Source of the DNA: a virus
Reading direction: 5' to 3' (one strand)
DNA length: 20,060 nt
Virus record (IMG/VR): IMGVR_UViG_3300047370_000128
Location: 1 to 20,060 of that record
The position numbers and the translations under genes are program-made. The stretch's first letter is position 1. Each line of letters begins with the position of its first letter. This document shows positions 11,571 through 15,555 of the stretch, piece by piece. Under the pieces are notes generated by a model that saw nothing but the letters and a program-made list of their open reading frames with translations, was not told the DNA's origin and did no database searches.

Positions 11571-11810
11571 TTACCACTCCACCTGTGATCCAGGCATTTT
11601 TGCCATCTTATTCATGTGTTCACTCCATCCAGGATGAGTCTTGTTCATTTTGTTACGCCAGTCTCCGACTTCTCCGACACCAGCACAACCTTGCGACCAA
11701 TCTTTATCCCATTCAGGATTTTCATCCTTCCAAGAACAATATTCTTTCATGGTCATGTGGAGTGTCTGTGTTTCTCCAGTAGATTTATTTATGACAGGGT
11801 ATGTAGGCAT
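11571..11810 (-). CDS. Small conserved phage protein, unknown function
   Basis: The 79-aa product starts MPTYPVINKSTGETQTLHMT, and has MKEYCSWKDENPEWDKDWS and a C-terminal segment with MNKTHPGWSEHMNKMAKMPG. The opening MPTY-x-V-x-N-K-x-TGE and the hydrophilic WK-x-ENP segment are typical of small conserved proteins seen in T4-like phages, sometimes compared to FmdB/zinc-ribbon-like proteins. It has only two Cys (one near 25, one near 42), so a zinc ribbon is not obvious. Its start overlaps the stop of the carbamoyltransferase N-domain gene as TAATG, and PhoH follows closely. No function is assigned. Confidence 0.6.
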   Translation of the reverse strand: MPTYPVINKSTGETQTLHMTMKEYCSWKDENPEWDKDWSQGCAGVGEVGDWRNKMNKTHPGWSEHMNKMAKMPGSQVEW

Positions 11811-12865
11811 TAATTTAGTCCAAGGTAGATGCTATGAGGATGTTTTGTTTGCGACCCAGTAGTATTATACCACAAATATTTCGCTGCGCCAAGGGCAGTT
11901 CCACAATCGAATGCTATTGGATCTACAAAGAAGTTAATGTCAGGAAATTTCTTGACATACTTATAGTTATTTACACAGTTCATAAAGTATCCACCACTCA
12001 GTACAATGTTATTAGGATTGTACTTGTCGATAACTTTTTGAATTGTATACATGGTGTGGTTACATGATTCTTGCTGAAGTTTAGCAGCAAAGTTTGCTTT
12101 TGAATCAAAGGTATCAGAAACACTATGCATCTCATTGTATACAACAGAATTATCTGTAAGGTAATGTCCTTTGTATTCTTTATACCATGACACATCAGAT
12201 TCTATCTGACCGTATGCTGCCATGCCCATAAGTTTACCAGCATCAGCACCTGAGTTATTGAATCCAAACATTTCACATGCTCTAGAAAAGATCCAACCAC
12301 ATGCAAGATGATTAGTATATGTCTTATGACCTATTGTTTCTACAAAACTATCACGATTAAACCCAGAATAATATTGTTCTAGTTCGTTGATACCATTGTA
12401 ACTACAATCGTAAATGGATTGTATTTCTCTAGACACACATTCTCTATTAGATGGAGCACCAGAACCATCCTTTACAATAGCGATAGCATTATCCATACCA
12501 GACATATAAAATGCATTAGATGCATGGTATATGTGATGACGGTACATATCATAGTGTGTCTTACCAAAGGTGACACCATGATCTGCTAACGCATTCTTAA
12601 CTACATGCATTCTTCGTGGATCGTTTCCTGGTGAACCATACGATGCGAAGATAAGATGATCAACATGTTTTACATATGGAATTGCTTGGAATCCATTACG
12701 AACAGTCTGATAAACATTACTCTTAGTACGAATGCTTTCTTGTGTTTCAATTCTAGAGTTTTTTGTTTTATTAAGACGTTCTTCTTCGATAAAGTATTGC
12801 ACTACACCATCTTTAAGTAAACATGATGACGGGTGATGTGATATGTTGACACTTAAGATGTACAT
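11810..12865 (-). CDS. Carbamoyltransferase, N-terminal (Kae1-like) domain protein
   Basis: The 351-aa product is the N-terminal half of a NodU/CmcH-type O-carbamoyltransferase. It begins MYILSVNISHHPSSCLLKDG, has HHIYHASNAFY near 110-119, VKDGSGAPS near 131-139, AGKLMGMAAYG near 209-219 and NIVLSGGYFMNC near 286-297, in the usual order. It stops near SIYLGLN, exactly where the second domain would normally follow in the single-chain enzyme. The remaining domain is encoded by the upstream gene (overlap 13 nt). The Kae1-like domain transfers the carbamoyl group from carbamoyl-adenylate to a hydroxyl of a sugar, antibiotic or modified base. The substrate is unknown. Confidence 0.85.
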   Translation of the reverse strand: MYILSVNISHHPSSCLLKDGVVQYFIEEERLNKTKNSRIETQESIRTKSNVYQTVRNGFQAIPYVKHVDHLIFASYGSPGNDPRRMHVVKNALADHGVTFGKTHYDMYRHHIYHASNAFYMSGMDNAIAIVKDGSGAPSNRECVSREIQSIYDCSYNGINELEQYYSGFNRDSFVETIGHKTYTNHLACGWIFSRACEMFGFNNSGADAGKLMGMAAYGQIESDVSWYKEYKGHYLTDNSVVYNEMHSVSDTFDSKANFAAKLQQESCNHTMYTIQKVIDKYNPNNIVLSGGYFMNCVNNYKYVKKFPDINFFVDPIAFDCGTALGAAKYLWYNTTGSQTKHPHSIYLGLN

Positions 12866-13395
12866 AGTTGAGCACTGTCAGGAAAATAAACAAAGTCAAT
12901 AGCAGATCGATTGAGTGTGTCTAATGCATCTGCTTCACTGTGAACTATAGTATCACCACTAAGATTGAATGATGTATTGAATAACATAGGTACACCTGTA
13001 ATTATTCTAAAAGCATCAAGAAGCATGTAGTAATTATAGTTCTGCTCTTTAGTTACTGTCTGGATACGACAAGTCTTATCTACATGTAGGACACCAGGAA
13101 TGATATCATATACTTCAGGATGAGCATCCATTGCATACGTCATGTAAGGACTCTCAGGTAGTCCAGCAAGGTCAAAGTAATCTGAAGCATACTCAAGCAT
13201 AACAGACGCTGCAAATGGTCTGTACCATTCTCTACGCTTGACTATGTTGATCTTATATTTTGCTTCTGGATCTCTGGGATCATAAAGGATAGATCTATTA
13301 CCCAGTGCTCTCGGACCTGCTTCATCTGCACCTTGAAAGATTGCTACAATCTTACCTTCACTGATTAGTTCAGCAACATCATGATAGGTAACCAT
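12853..13395 (-). CDS. Carbamoyltransferase, C-terminal (YrdC-like) domain protein
   Basis: About 180 aa, carrying DEAGPRALGNRSILYDPRD, REWYRPFAASVM and GVPMLFNTSFNLSGDTIVHS, which are the motifs of the C-terminal domain of NodU/CmcH carbamoyltransferases (Carbam_trans_C). That domain makes the carbamoyl-adenylate intermediate from carbamoyl phosphate and ATP. The gene lies upstream of the N-domain gene, reversing the domain order of single-chain homologues. A TTG start four codons earlier (13407) is also possible; I prefer the ATG at 13395, which keeps a 17-nt overlap with thyX. Its last 13 nt overlap the N-domain start, consistent with equal production of two subunits. No frameshift site is visible in the overlap. 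Confidence 0.8.
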   Translation of the reverse strand: MVTYHDVAELISEGKIVAIFQGADEAGPRALGNRSILYDPRDPEAKYKINIVKRREWYRPFAASVMLEYASDYFDLAGLPESPYMTYAMDAHPEVYDIIPGVLHVDKTCRIQTVTKEQNYNYYMLLDAFRIITGVPMLFNTSFNLSGDTIVHSEADALDTLNRSAIDFVYFPDSAQLCTS

Positions 13396-14026
13396 TTGCT
13401 TCAGCAATCACAGGGAACTGTTCAATAAAGATCTTCTTACATGCCTCAGCAATATCCATGTGTTCTTTTTGTGTGCCATTAGCAGATCTTAGATCGATAT
13501 AATGCATCCATGAACGCAAATTTCCTGTCATAAAAATACGAGTGCCAACAGCCAAAGGAAGAACAAAACGGGAGCATTCCTTAGCAACCCCTTGACGCAG
13601 AAGCTCGTTATAGAGATCAATACCCTCGGCAAAATGTCTTGCAATTGCCCCTTGTAATGCAAGTTTCTTTTCGGGGCTGATATCATCCACTGAGTTCTGT
13701 CTGTTCTTCGTATCTTGAGATCGAAGATCTGGGACAGGTATCTCACTAGTGAGGAGATTAGTGTCTGCATAGCGTTGCGAAAATTCTTGGAAAGTAAACG
13801 AACGATGACGCAGAATTTGGGCTGCGATACCGCGAGAGGTATTTATCTCCAAAGTCATGTGTGCCTGCTCAAAGACGCTCCAATGCCCATGCTTAATGCA
13901 ATAACTCAGTAGACCAGCGACCTTAGGGTTGTCTTGGTTATTGGGGTTGCTTACGCGAGCAATGTAACCGATCGTCTTCTCTGCCTCAGGTGTTACAGAT
14001 ACTAATTTAACATCCATGTTAGTCAT
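13379..14026 (-). CDS. thyX: Flavin-dependent thymidylate synthase ThyX
   Basis: The 215-aa protein converts dUMP to dTMP using FAD and methylenetetrahydrofolate. The signature R-H-R-x7-S-x-R-Y appears at residues 73-86 (RHRSFTFQEFSQRY), which binds FAD and dUMP. Other ThyX features are a HGHWSVFEQA motif near 46-55 and a C-terminal WMHYIDLRSANGTQKE segment with the conserved Arg. Length matches the family. It overlaps the carbamoyltransferase C-domain gene, suggesting co-translation and possibly a shared theme in pyrimidine nucleotide supply or DNA base chemistry. Confidence 0.95.
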   Translation of the reverse strand: MTNMDVKLVSVTPEAEKTIGYIARVSNPNNQDNPKVAGLLSYCIKHGHWSVFEQAHMTLEINTSRGIAAQILRHRSFTFQEFSQRYADTNLLTSEIPVPDLRSQDTKNRQNSVDDISPEKKLALQGAIARHFAEGIDLYNELLRQGVAKECSRFVLPLAVGTRIFMTGNLRSWMHYIDLRSANGTQKEHMDIAEACKKIFIEQFPVIAEANGYLS

Positions 14027-15052: not shown

Positions 15053-15079
15053 AAAAAAAGGAGGGTGTCAACCCCCCTT
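15053..15079 (-). terminator. Intrinsic terminator of the DUF4278 mini-operon
   Basis: On the minus strand AAGGGGGGT (15079-15071) pairs with ACCCTCCTT (15066-15058), with one G-U pair and a 4-nt loop, followed by further T residues (15057-15053). This is a textbook terminator just 8 nt past the DUF4278 stop codon. Confidence 0.85.
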
Positions 15080-15086
15080 AGTTAAA

Positions 15087-15254
15087 TCACTTGGTGTAAA
15101 GTTTACCGCGATAGCAGAATGTGCCATGGGTTTGCTTTGATTCTACACAACGTGTATTATACTCAACACCACGGTATGTAGTGTGACTAATCTGAGCGTC
15201 GTGAAGTGCAGATGCTTTTTGAATCTGCTTACGAATCAGGTTAAGTGTGTTCAT
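15087..15254 (-). CDS. DUF4278 family protein
   Basis: The 55-aa product starts MNTLNLIRKQIQKASALHDA and has two YRG motifs (YRGVEYNT and, near the end, CYRGKLYTK), the pattern I associate with DUF4278, a small family of cyanobacteria and cyanophages. AGGAGT lies 8 nt before the ATG, so it is well translated. It is second in the riboswitch-led mini-operon and ends just before the terminator. Function unknown. Confidence 0.7.
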   Translation of the reverse strand: MNTLNLIRKQIQKASALHDAQISHTTYRGVEYNTRCVESKQTHGTFCYRGKLYTK

Positions 15255-15293
15255 TTTGTTACTCCTAAAGTAGTTGGATTTTAATCCGTTCCT

Positions 15294-15461
15294 TTAGTCG
15301 TTTGCGTCCCAATACCACTCACATTCTGGTGCTGAGTCCTTAAGGGTCTCAACCAACTCTATCTTCACAATGGAAGATAGATTCACATTCTTCTCAATCT
15401 TCAACATGATAGCATCAGTTTGAGAGCAGGTGAGTGTTGTATAGAATAGTACTTCTAACAT
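15294..15461 (-). CDS. Small cyanophage protein controlled by a putative glutamine riboswitch
   Basis: The 55-aa product reads MLEVLFYTTLTCSQTDAIML, has a middle VNLSSIVKIELVETLKDSAP and ends CEWYWDAND. It is mildly acidic, with two Cys and a short hydrophobic N-terminus. I do not know a function. It is directly downstream of a leader that fits the glutamine riboswitch, whose Downstream-peptide class typically precedes short ORFs of 17-100 codons in cyanobacteria and phages. GGAG, 11 nt before the ATG, is the best ribosome binding signal, and it overlaps the 3' side of the riboswitch. Confidence 0.65.
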   Translation of the reverse strand: MLEVLFYTTLTCSQTDAIMLKIEKNVNLSSIVKIELVETLKDSAPECEWYWDAND

Positions 15462-15475
15462 GGGATGAACGGCTC

Positions 15476-15519
15476 CGTTCCGCGACTTACTTGCGTCCCA
15501 CCCAAGAGCGGGATGAACG
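15476..15519 (-). promoter_or_regulatory. Putative glutamine riboswitch (glnA / Downstream-peptide class)
   Basis: Read on the minus strand the leader contains, in order, CGUUCA, a UCCC...GGGA hairpin, GACG, AAGUAAG, and GGAACG. These are the conserved blocks of the glutamine aptamer in the right order. P1 forms from CGUUC (15519-15515) with GGAACG (15481-15476). The predicted transcript begins at about 15520, so the aptamer is at the 5' end. A second CGUUCAUCCC (15471-15462) just before the ATG can pair with GGAACG instead, giving a plausible switching partner. Confidence 0.75.
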
Positions 15520-15526
15520 TGTGGTA

Positions 15527-15555
15527 ATTATACCATAACTATTTAGTGGAGTCAA
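15527..15555 (-). promoter_or_regulatory. Sigma70-type promoter for the riboswitch operon
   Basis: On the minus strand TTGACT (15555-15550) and TATAAT (15532-15527) are separated by exactly 17 bp. The predicted start, about 15519-15521, coincides with the first base of the riboswitch. The -35 box lies just past the speD stop codon. Confidence 0.85.

Follow-up and report, generated by a model that had tools for sequence, protein, structure and literature searches.

Candidate tandem glutamine aptamers in a cyanophage transcript, the second with a short gene nested in it

Comparison among phage sequences suggests that an early cyanophage transcript carries two tandem glnA-type aptamers, that a short gene (ORF1) is nested in the second of them and is followed by another short gene (ORF2), and that the whole arrangement switches with glutamine; we give this reading a probability of roughly 60%. 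The unit lies on the minus strand of the window, by which we mean the whole stretch of 20,060 nucleotides that was analysed, and runs from the promoter through aptamer 1, then aptamer 2, whose P2 loop encloses ORF1, and ORF2 to the terminator (Table 1). The nested layout, the closure of P2 across the gene, the pairing of strand b1 with strand a2 and the strand complementary to the Shine-Dalgarno (SD) leader of ORF2 (the anti-SD strand) are supported by sequence comparison. The original prediction, in which a single glutamine riboswitch with a duplicated P1 strand controls a two-gene phage operon, had described a promoter, the ordered aptamer blocks, GGAACG and a second copy of the P1 strand before a start codon, and all of these are present on the minus strand at 15555-15294, with promoter-like and terminator-like sites at the ends of the two-gene unit. 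What it observed was confirmed but is incomplete, and its interpretation is partly supported.

Table 1. Features of the proposed transcription unit and their positions in the window
Feature	Position	Strand	Remarks
Sigma-70-type promoter TTGACT-17-TATAAT	15527..15555	-	11/12 matches, TG before the -10 box; TTGACT at 15555-15550, 17-nt spacer, TATAAT at 15532-15527
Aptamer 1, 5' half: P1 strand a1 (CGUUC) and P2 start (UCCC)	15510..15519	-	
Aptamer 1, 3' half GGGACGCAAGUAAGUCGCGGAACG, including P1 strand b1 (15481-15476)	15476..15499	-	Sub-threshold RF01704 and RF01739 matches
Alternative hairpin b1:a2 (GAACG-GAGC-CGUUC), just 5' of the ORF1 start codon	15462..15481	-	Compensatory change, spacer, folding
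Putative aptamer 2, 5' half: strand a2 of P1 plus P2 arm UCCC, directly followed by AUG	15462..15471	-	
ORF1, 55 aa, phrog_504, in the P2 loop of putative aptamer 2	15294..15461	-	Stop codon UAA (15296-15294) inside the 3' half of aptamer 2; A of the start codon able to pair in P2
Putative aptamer 2, 3' half GGGACGCAAACGACUAAAGGAACG, including P1 strand b2 (15292-15287)	15287..15310	-	
ORF2 anti-SD strand CUAAAG, overlapping the ORF1 stop codon and touching b2	15292..15297	-	Covariation, folding
ORF2 SD leader CUUUAGGAG	15262..15270	-	
ORF2, 55 aa, DUF4278-like, phrog_545	15087..15254	-	PF14105 below cut-off; phrog_545 E 1e-34
Terminator-like hairpin with T tract, likely unit end	15058..15079	-	

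The leader of the window was matched at E <= 1 by 431 of 50,697 phage records, whose names assign them to Synechococcus (357), cyanophage (65), Prochlorococcus (8) and marine (1) phages; it is therefore not a chance find. AdoMet decarboxylase and other genes lie upstream of the unit, in an arrangement as in T4-like cyanophages. A -10 box stands 7-9 nt upstream of CGTTCA in 85/112 local and 20/40 nested distinct aptamer-1 units. Elsewhere in the window, a carbamoyltransferase at 11810-13407 (minus strand) is encoded by two overlapping ORFs with a permuted domain order, the C-terminal domain PF16861 (13407-12853) being read ahead of the N-terminal domain PF02543 (12865-11810).

Two repeats place ORF1 within an aptamer. 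The element CGTTCATCCC occurs exactly twice in the window (15519-15510 and 15471-15462), as does GGGACGCAA-N9-GGAACGGA (15499-15474 and 15310-15285), which was seen for neither element in 100 shuffles. The first copies of the two elements together make up aptamer 1, whereas the second CGTTCATCCC ends directly at the ORF1 start codon and its partner, at the end of ORF1, holds the stop codon. In relatives including L118, L082, L099 and L196, the two halves of aptamer 2 are contiguous and form an ordinary tandem aptamer before the next gene, and S-PM2, by reading, also carries a contiguous second aptamer with no ORF inside. Because the partner lies at the end of ORF1 and the halves are contiguous in these relatives, the second CGTTCATCCC is best read as the 5' half of an aptamer that nests ORF1. 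The duplicated P1 strand had been taken for a switching partner, a role that stands; judged by these sequences, the second CGUUCAUCCC in addition supplies the 5' half of another aptamer, which would hold ORF1. Both aptamers of the window keep the fixed order CGUUCA-P2-GACGNAA-core-GGAACG.

A looser pattern applied to 297 phage records yielded 253 distinct aptamers whose P2 nests an ORF (213 aptamer 2 and 40 aptamer 1), counting a few wrong calls that were left in this set and in the sets of 67 and 59 representatives used below; examples are a unit of L027 wrongly typed as aptamer 2 and a start called too late in L181 (35 aa). The nested start codon is ATG in 252/253 units and lies 10 nt past the start of CGTTCA in 225/253, and in 207 of those 225 its A is opposite a U of the other P2 arm. 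The nested ORFs are 49-75 aa long, except in two cases, the 35-aa call of L181 and a gene of 182 aa. Stricter expressions, which undercount, called 120 unit groups in at least 120 motif-bearing viral stretches. Among the matches listed, aptamer 1 was local and aptamer 2 nested in 57 groups, both were local in 15 and both nested in 7, and aptamer 1 was nested and aptamer 2 local in 2, so that all four combinations exist; a further 8 groups had a nested aptamer 2 without a called aptamer 1, 19 had only a local aptamer 1 called, 1 had a truncated aptamer 1 with a nested aptamer 2, and 11 were of other kinds. Regular expressions miss variants: 21/80 ORF1 loci carry GACGCACACGAC, and a2 reads CGTTGA in L114, L138 and L150.

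Among 14 isolates, taken non-randomly from the match lists, 12 carry at least one nested unit (S-IOM18, S-H68, Syn9, P-RSM1, P-TIM40, S-TIM4, S-TIM66, Syn33, Syn1, S-CAM1, S-RSM4 and Sf-FP1), and the other two, S-PM2 and ACG-2014f, carry none. In Syn9 the two nested genes are annotated merely as gp196 and gp197, and in the deposited genome of Sf-FP1 (L551, 3033-3576) both nested ORFs are unannotated. A cyanophage tandem with a nested ORF was also found in L321 (NHGE01000071.1), a contig of the MAG of Euryarchaeota archaeon TMED129, and this sequence is probably phage DNA binned with an archaeal MAG.

With the 3' half kept, ORF stop codons were found at -3, -1, 0, 7, 11, 13, 15, 18, 28 and 31 nt relative to GACG; a stop 15 or 18 nt past the G of GACG is found in 202/213 aptamer-2 units, and a stop at 0 or +11 in 35/40 aptamer-1 units, with the others elsewhere. 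Since the stop position varies, the block from GACGCAA to GGAACG is read in several frames or left unread, yet it is kept. The core motifs GACGCAA and GAAGGAACG/AAAGGAACG were nearly invariant over 24 diverse nested units, a conservation that is partly built into the found set because the unit-finding patterns demand part of the motif. No such requirement enters the patterns for the P2 arms outside GA, for the codon test or for the anti-SD pairs described below.

By comparison, the P2 helix spans the gene. Its first 4 bp form in 64/67 representatives sharing <60% identity, as compared with a mean of 49.3 and a maximum of 57 in 5000 trials with shuffled partners. Over all units they form in 240/253 (shuffled mean 188.9, maximum 202), and over the aptamer-1 units in 30/40 (shuffled mean 13.9, maximum 22), so that 10 of the 13 units that fall short are among these 40; the shuffle controls leave shared ancestry in place. 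The arms are altered on both sides, as in UCUUA:UAAGA, UCUCAC:GUGAGA, UCUA:UAGA and UCCAA:UUGGA. Of the 52 nested aptamer-2 units available, 24 were also aligned with the ORF excised, and the covariance model R1 was built from these alone. In this alignment the covariation score was 0.155 as against 0.094 after shuffling, with 0/500 shuffles as high, and sliding the P2 partners abolished most of the pairing. P1 is invariant throughout the R1 alignment, and a2:b2 is for this reason without covariation support.

For 59 aptamer-2 representatives, ViennaRNA ensembles gave P2 across the ORF a median pairing probability of 0.84, with 45 above 0.5, and after permutation of synonymous codons, with the protein and the codon counts kept, the median was 0.19 and 13/59 exceeded 0.5. 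The natural sequence was above the permuted one in 53/59 (Wilcoxon 4e-10), the other 6/59 being ties or the other way, and the folding energy had a median z of -2.2 against the codon-permuted controls. These predictions suggest that codon choice within the ORF favours the closure of P2. In the transcript of the window, the predicted ligand-free pair probabilities of P2 across ORF1 were 0.79-0.97. Against a nested aptamer count the entropy cost of a loop of ~140-210 nt, the fact that translation would break P2, and the 14/59 representatives in which P2 was predicted below 0.5, with 0.00 in four.

The original prediction also held that the second CGUUC can compete for GGAACG, and natural variation supports this. 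In 8 records from 6 backgrounds, b1 reads GCAACG and a2 reads CGUUGA, with a1 and b2 unchanged. Through this double change b1:a2 is preserved, and the inner pairs of a1:b1 and of a2:b2 are lost. As far as sequence can tell, it supports b1:a2 and speaks against both P1 helices being strictly required in these records; because a 32-nt segment is identical in 7/8 of them, the double change is possibly one event spread by recombination. The gap between b1 and a2 is 3-4 nt in 144/152 distinct units. In the predicted ligand-free transcript of the window, b1:a2 (0.96-0.99) and the anti-SD hairpin (0.99-1.0) dominate, with a2:b2 at ~0 and a1:b1 at 0.01, whereas in the leader folded alone the P1 of aptamer 1 forms at 0.81-0.92. 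Over 54 representatives, b1:a2 was predicted above 0.5 in 37.

At the start of ORF2, CU(A/G)AAG pairs with CUU(U/C)AG before GAG, and in most units it holds the ORF1 stop codon UAA or UGA. At the position that varies in both strands, the nested units have 68 A-U, 71 G-C, 34 G-U and 0 A-C pairs (Fisher 2e-22), and the representatives have 16, 16, 9 and 0 (p 3e-5). The anti-SD strand is present with no such leader in 33 of all units and in 15 representatives. ORF2 had been called a DUF4278 protein; it resembles this family but scores 21.9 bits against PF14105 (E 2.2e-4), under the cut-off of 25.3, and among four counterparts in isolates that of P-TIM40 alone reaches the cut-off (25.8), the others giving 21.0-22.9. 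According to the part of PMC6316151 consulted, the DUF4278 domain is the N-terminal part of a cyanobacterial glutamine-synthetase inactivating factor, and host glutamine riboswitches activate expression on glutamine and mostly stand ahead of DUF4278 genes.

The identity of the aptamers was examined with the Rfam models. A glutamine-aptamer relative does lie in a cyanophage leader ahead of a short ORF and a DUF4278-like gene, as had been proposed, and aptamer 1 matches both glutamine families, but only below the gathering thresholds (23.8 bits against RF01704, gathering 33; 22.9 bits against RF01739, gathering 35); the Rfam scan of the window gave no match reaching any gathering score. By the covariance-model check set for the original prediction, aptamer 1 thus passes just as a match under the threshold. 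Aptamer 2 cannot be scored whole against RF01739, because the ORF interrupts it. Among the relatives scanned, 6/18 exceeded 35 bits with RF01739. In five of them the match lies on a local aptamer 2, and in L117 it spans both aptamers, with 40.3 bits and 97 nt. On the local aptamer 2 itself, 5/10 records passed with 35.3-37.7 bits, and four of the 10 (L099, L107, L149 and L162) had no RF01739 match above gathering.

The covariance model R1 found the local aptamer 2 in 20/20 phage records (42.8-68 bits). On 283,540 bases of bacterial loci, covering 39 of at least 118 stretches and chosen for carrying the glnA pattern, it gave 38 matches at E <= 1, all on glnA aptamers (37 with the full pattern and 1 with a partial one), with individually weak scores of 13.2-22.9 bits. 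These matches indicate, at the level of sequence, that the nested aptamer 2 is homologous to ordinary glnA aptamers. Over 292 cyanobacterial genomes, R1 with strict filters found nothing at E <= 0.001, a result that is uninformative because the model gives host aptamers only 13-23 bits. The phage aptamers have CGCAA where host glnA aptamers have CGGAA, and their core is shorter; the ligand could thus differ, and we infer from sequence that they bind glutamine and switch with it. In L216, L249, L267 and L301, the aptamer stands ahead of genes whose start, by reading, codes for DUF4278-like YRG motifs.

Several observations concern glutamine aptamers elsewhere. Aptamers of the glnA type, some in tandem, were found in SAR86 and other proteobacterial contigs (L213, L217, L239, L263 and others), whereas the portion of PMC6316151 seen states that glutamine riboswitches are restricted to cyanobacteria. 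In viral contigs with host-type glutamine aptamers, including L335, L351 and L398, the sequence directly 3' of the aptamer encodes YRG/DUF4278-like proteins or holds short ORFs that are often basic (a quarter of the aptamers listed). A scan of 120 viral stretches for host-type aptamers gave, among the matches listed, at least 123 aptamers that were local, and no aptamer lacking its 5' arm nearby; within these data, nesting is seen only in the cyanophage aptamer type. In addition, manA or PhotoRC-II RNAs share contigs with tandem glutamine aptamers in L118, L172, L196, L149, L181 and L199.

ORF1 and ORF2 belong to phrog_504 and phrog_545, respectively, both families of unknown function. ORF1 is a real gene, with a dN/dS of ~0.25 (600 sampled pairs of 60 ORFs). 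Its C terminus, WDAND, is written GGGACGCAAACGAC, with D52 and A53 invariant and W51 nearly so, and its last codons are fixed (GAC 49/49, GCA 48/49, GAC 49/49); because several codons elsewhere are equally fixed, the conservation of the end codons alone cannot separate RNA from protein constraint. Pfam gave nothing above chance for ORF1, whose best score was 12.6 bits (cut-off 25), and assigned none of the five other nested proteins searched to a family. The structure model of ORF1 is a helical hairpin (pLDDT 77.4, pTM 0.56), whose best structural match (Z 4.5) was unusable for assigning a function. The phrog_504 profile had 0 matches in 386 cyanobacterial genomes, with a positive control of 2/3 phage records; ORF1 thus looks phage-borne in that sample, which may not represent picocyanobacteria.

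In single one-to-one profile comparisons among the three main groups of nested proteins, the phrog_504 type matched the phrog_6471 type at E 1e-7 and the phrog_13397 type at 3e-7, and the latter two matched each other at 3e-6. These values suggest that one two-cysteine family was duplicated along with its aptamer. The exception in length is found in L050 (1727-2275), where a third aptamer nests in its P2 loop a 182-aa endonuclease-VII/HNH-like gene (phrog_1035, E 1e-17) that ends in the aptamer-coded WDASRA. A homing-endonuclease-like gene separates aptamer 1 from aptamer 2 in S-H68 (L203, 3041-3613), and S-TIM66 carries an HNH gene (L209, 1754-2248) immediately upstream of aptamer 1. The site may have been opened by invading endonucleases.

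These elements would allow the following mechanism. When glutamine is low, the starts of ORF1 and ORF2 would stay masked by the hairpins b1:a2 and anti-SD. At high glutamine, aptamer 1 would move b1 from a2 to a1 and open the ORF1 start. Glutamine-bound aptamer 2 would take up a2 and b2 and draw the anti-SD strand (AAG) into its core, and through this use of a2, b2 and AAG the ORF1 start would be masked again and ORF2 freed. The presence of ribosomes on ORF1 and the folding of aptamer 2 would be mutually exclusive, and a ribosome terminating at the ORF1 stop codon would open the anti-SD hairpin, so that either glutamine or the translation of ORF1 could activate ORF2. The sensor halves flank a gene that they probably help to control. 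That an aptamer is assembled from two halves around a translated gene, its loop carrying mainly the two-cysteine family and once an HNH-like endonuclease, is in our view evenly balanced; if this is true, the helix closes only while the gene is unread, and one RNA would read both glutamine and ribosome traffic.

The unit may also be read as translational coupling without any sensing of glutamine, the P2 stem, b1:a2 and the anti-SD pairing all being real and the translation of ORF1 opening the ORF2 start. The stop codon within an anti-SD strand that covaries with the SD leader, the P2 that forms ligand-free in the predicted ensemble, the 8 records in which P1 is broken and b1:a2 kept, and a window aptamer 1 under both Rfam thresholds all fit this explanation; however, it leaves unexplained the near invariance of the aptamer core over the 24 units, itself partly required by the search patterns, and the local aptamer-2 relatives that exceed the RF01739 gathering score, and we consider it unlikely, if still a serious alternative. 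Variant riboswitches for another, glutamine-related ligand seem improbable to us. The shorter core, CGCAAGUA in place of CGGAAGUA, and the about equally weak scores of aptamer 1 against types 1 and 2 would suit such a ligand. Against it, the type-1 glutamine threshold is attained by some local forms of aptamer 2, and these stand before DUF4278-like genes, with which host glutamine riboswitches are usually paired.

The model originally proposed has one aptamer, a duplicated P1 strand that is purely a switching partner, and a motif at the end of ORF1 without a role. It accounts well for the compensatory change in b1:a2, for the 3-4 nt spacer and for the predicted dominance of this hairpin in the window, but it is quite improbable in view of the covariation of P2 across the ORF, the ORF-free contiguous second aptamers of L118, L099 and S-PM2, and the retention of the 3' half even where the ORF stops ahead of it. 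Finally, coding constraint or chance would make the repeated motif merely the way in which a conserved WDAND is written, as the constraint on ORF1, its nearly fixed last residues and the equally fixed codons elsewhere might suggest; the same DNA is nevertheless kept in other frames and past earlier stop codons, the P2 arms covary across the gene and gene-free contiguous versions exist, so that the results contradict this explanation and it is scarcely credible. We thus retain the reading of two tandem aptamers, with ORF1 nested in the second, that switch with glutamine.

The usual picture of a riboswitch is a compact aptamer within an untranslated leader. The present system allows direct tests of whether an RNA that binds a ligand can assemble around a gene and of how ribosomes and ligand compete, and also of whether phages tune host nitrogen control via DUF4278-like proteins.

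Compared with known systems, the phage aptamers resemble type 1 glutamine riboswitches (RF01739) in the P1 pairing CGUUC:GAACG, in the P2 hairpin directly past CGUUCA, in GACGNAA, in the GAAGGAACG-like core of aptamer 2, in their tandem copies and in their position before DUF4278-like genes. They differ in the complete ORF that the P2 loop carries in one aptamer or in both, in a shorter core with C for G in CGGAA, and in an anti-SD strand that carries the stop codon of the nested ORF. With type 2 (Downstream-peptide, Glutamine-II, RF01704) they share CGUUCA, P2, the CGCA motif and a place before short ORFs, which type 2 has in marine cyanobacteria, whereas the window aptamer is without most of the long second hairpin of the consensus, and the gene here would be inside the second aptamer and not downstream. 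According to the part of PMC2864571 consulted, tandem glnA aptamers were already known and the RF01704 peptide gene sits downstream of the RNA; its supplement is said to discuss a conserved peptide sequence adjoining Downstream-peptide RNAs. A glnA cis-regulatory RNA was found with Rfam in T4-like cyanophages, with a match of 99 nt and 44.0 bits in S-CREM1 (PMC9964418), a span that resembles the 97-nt match covering both tandem aptamers in L117; compared by description, in the text seen, it is reported as a single element and no tandem or nested gene is described (PMC9964418).

Glutamine riboswitches, their tandem copies, the DUF4278 link and the cyanophage glnA RNA are thus already known, and in the literature searched, of which coverage was partial and in which priority is not certain, no gene nested in a riboswitch aptamer was found. 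Group I introns carry homing-endonuclease ORFs in peripheral loops. The phage units resemble them as structured RNAs with an ORF in a loop, most closely in L050, where the aptamer nests an endonuclease-VII/HNH-like gene, and differ from them in that the RNA here would be a regulatory aptamer and the usual nested genes encode proteins of 49-75 aa.
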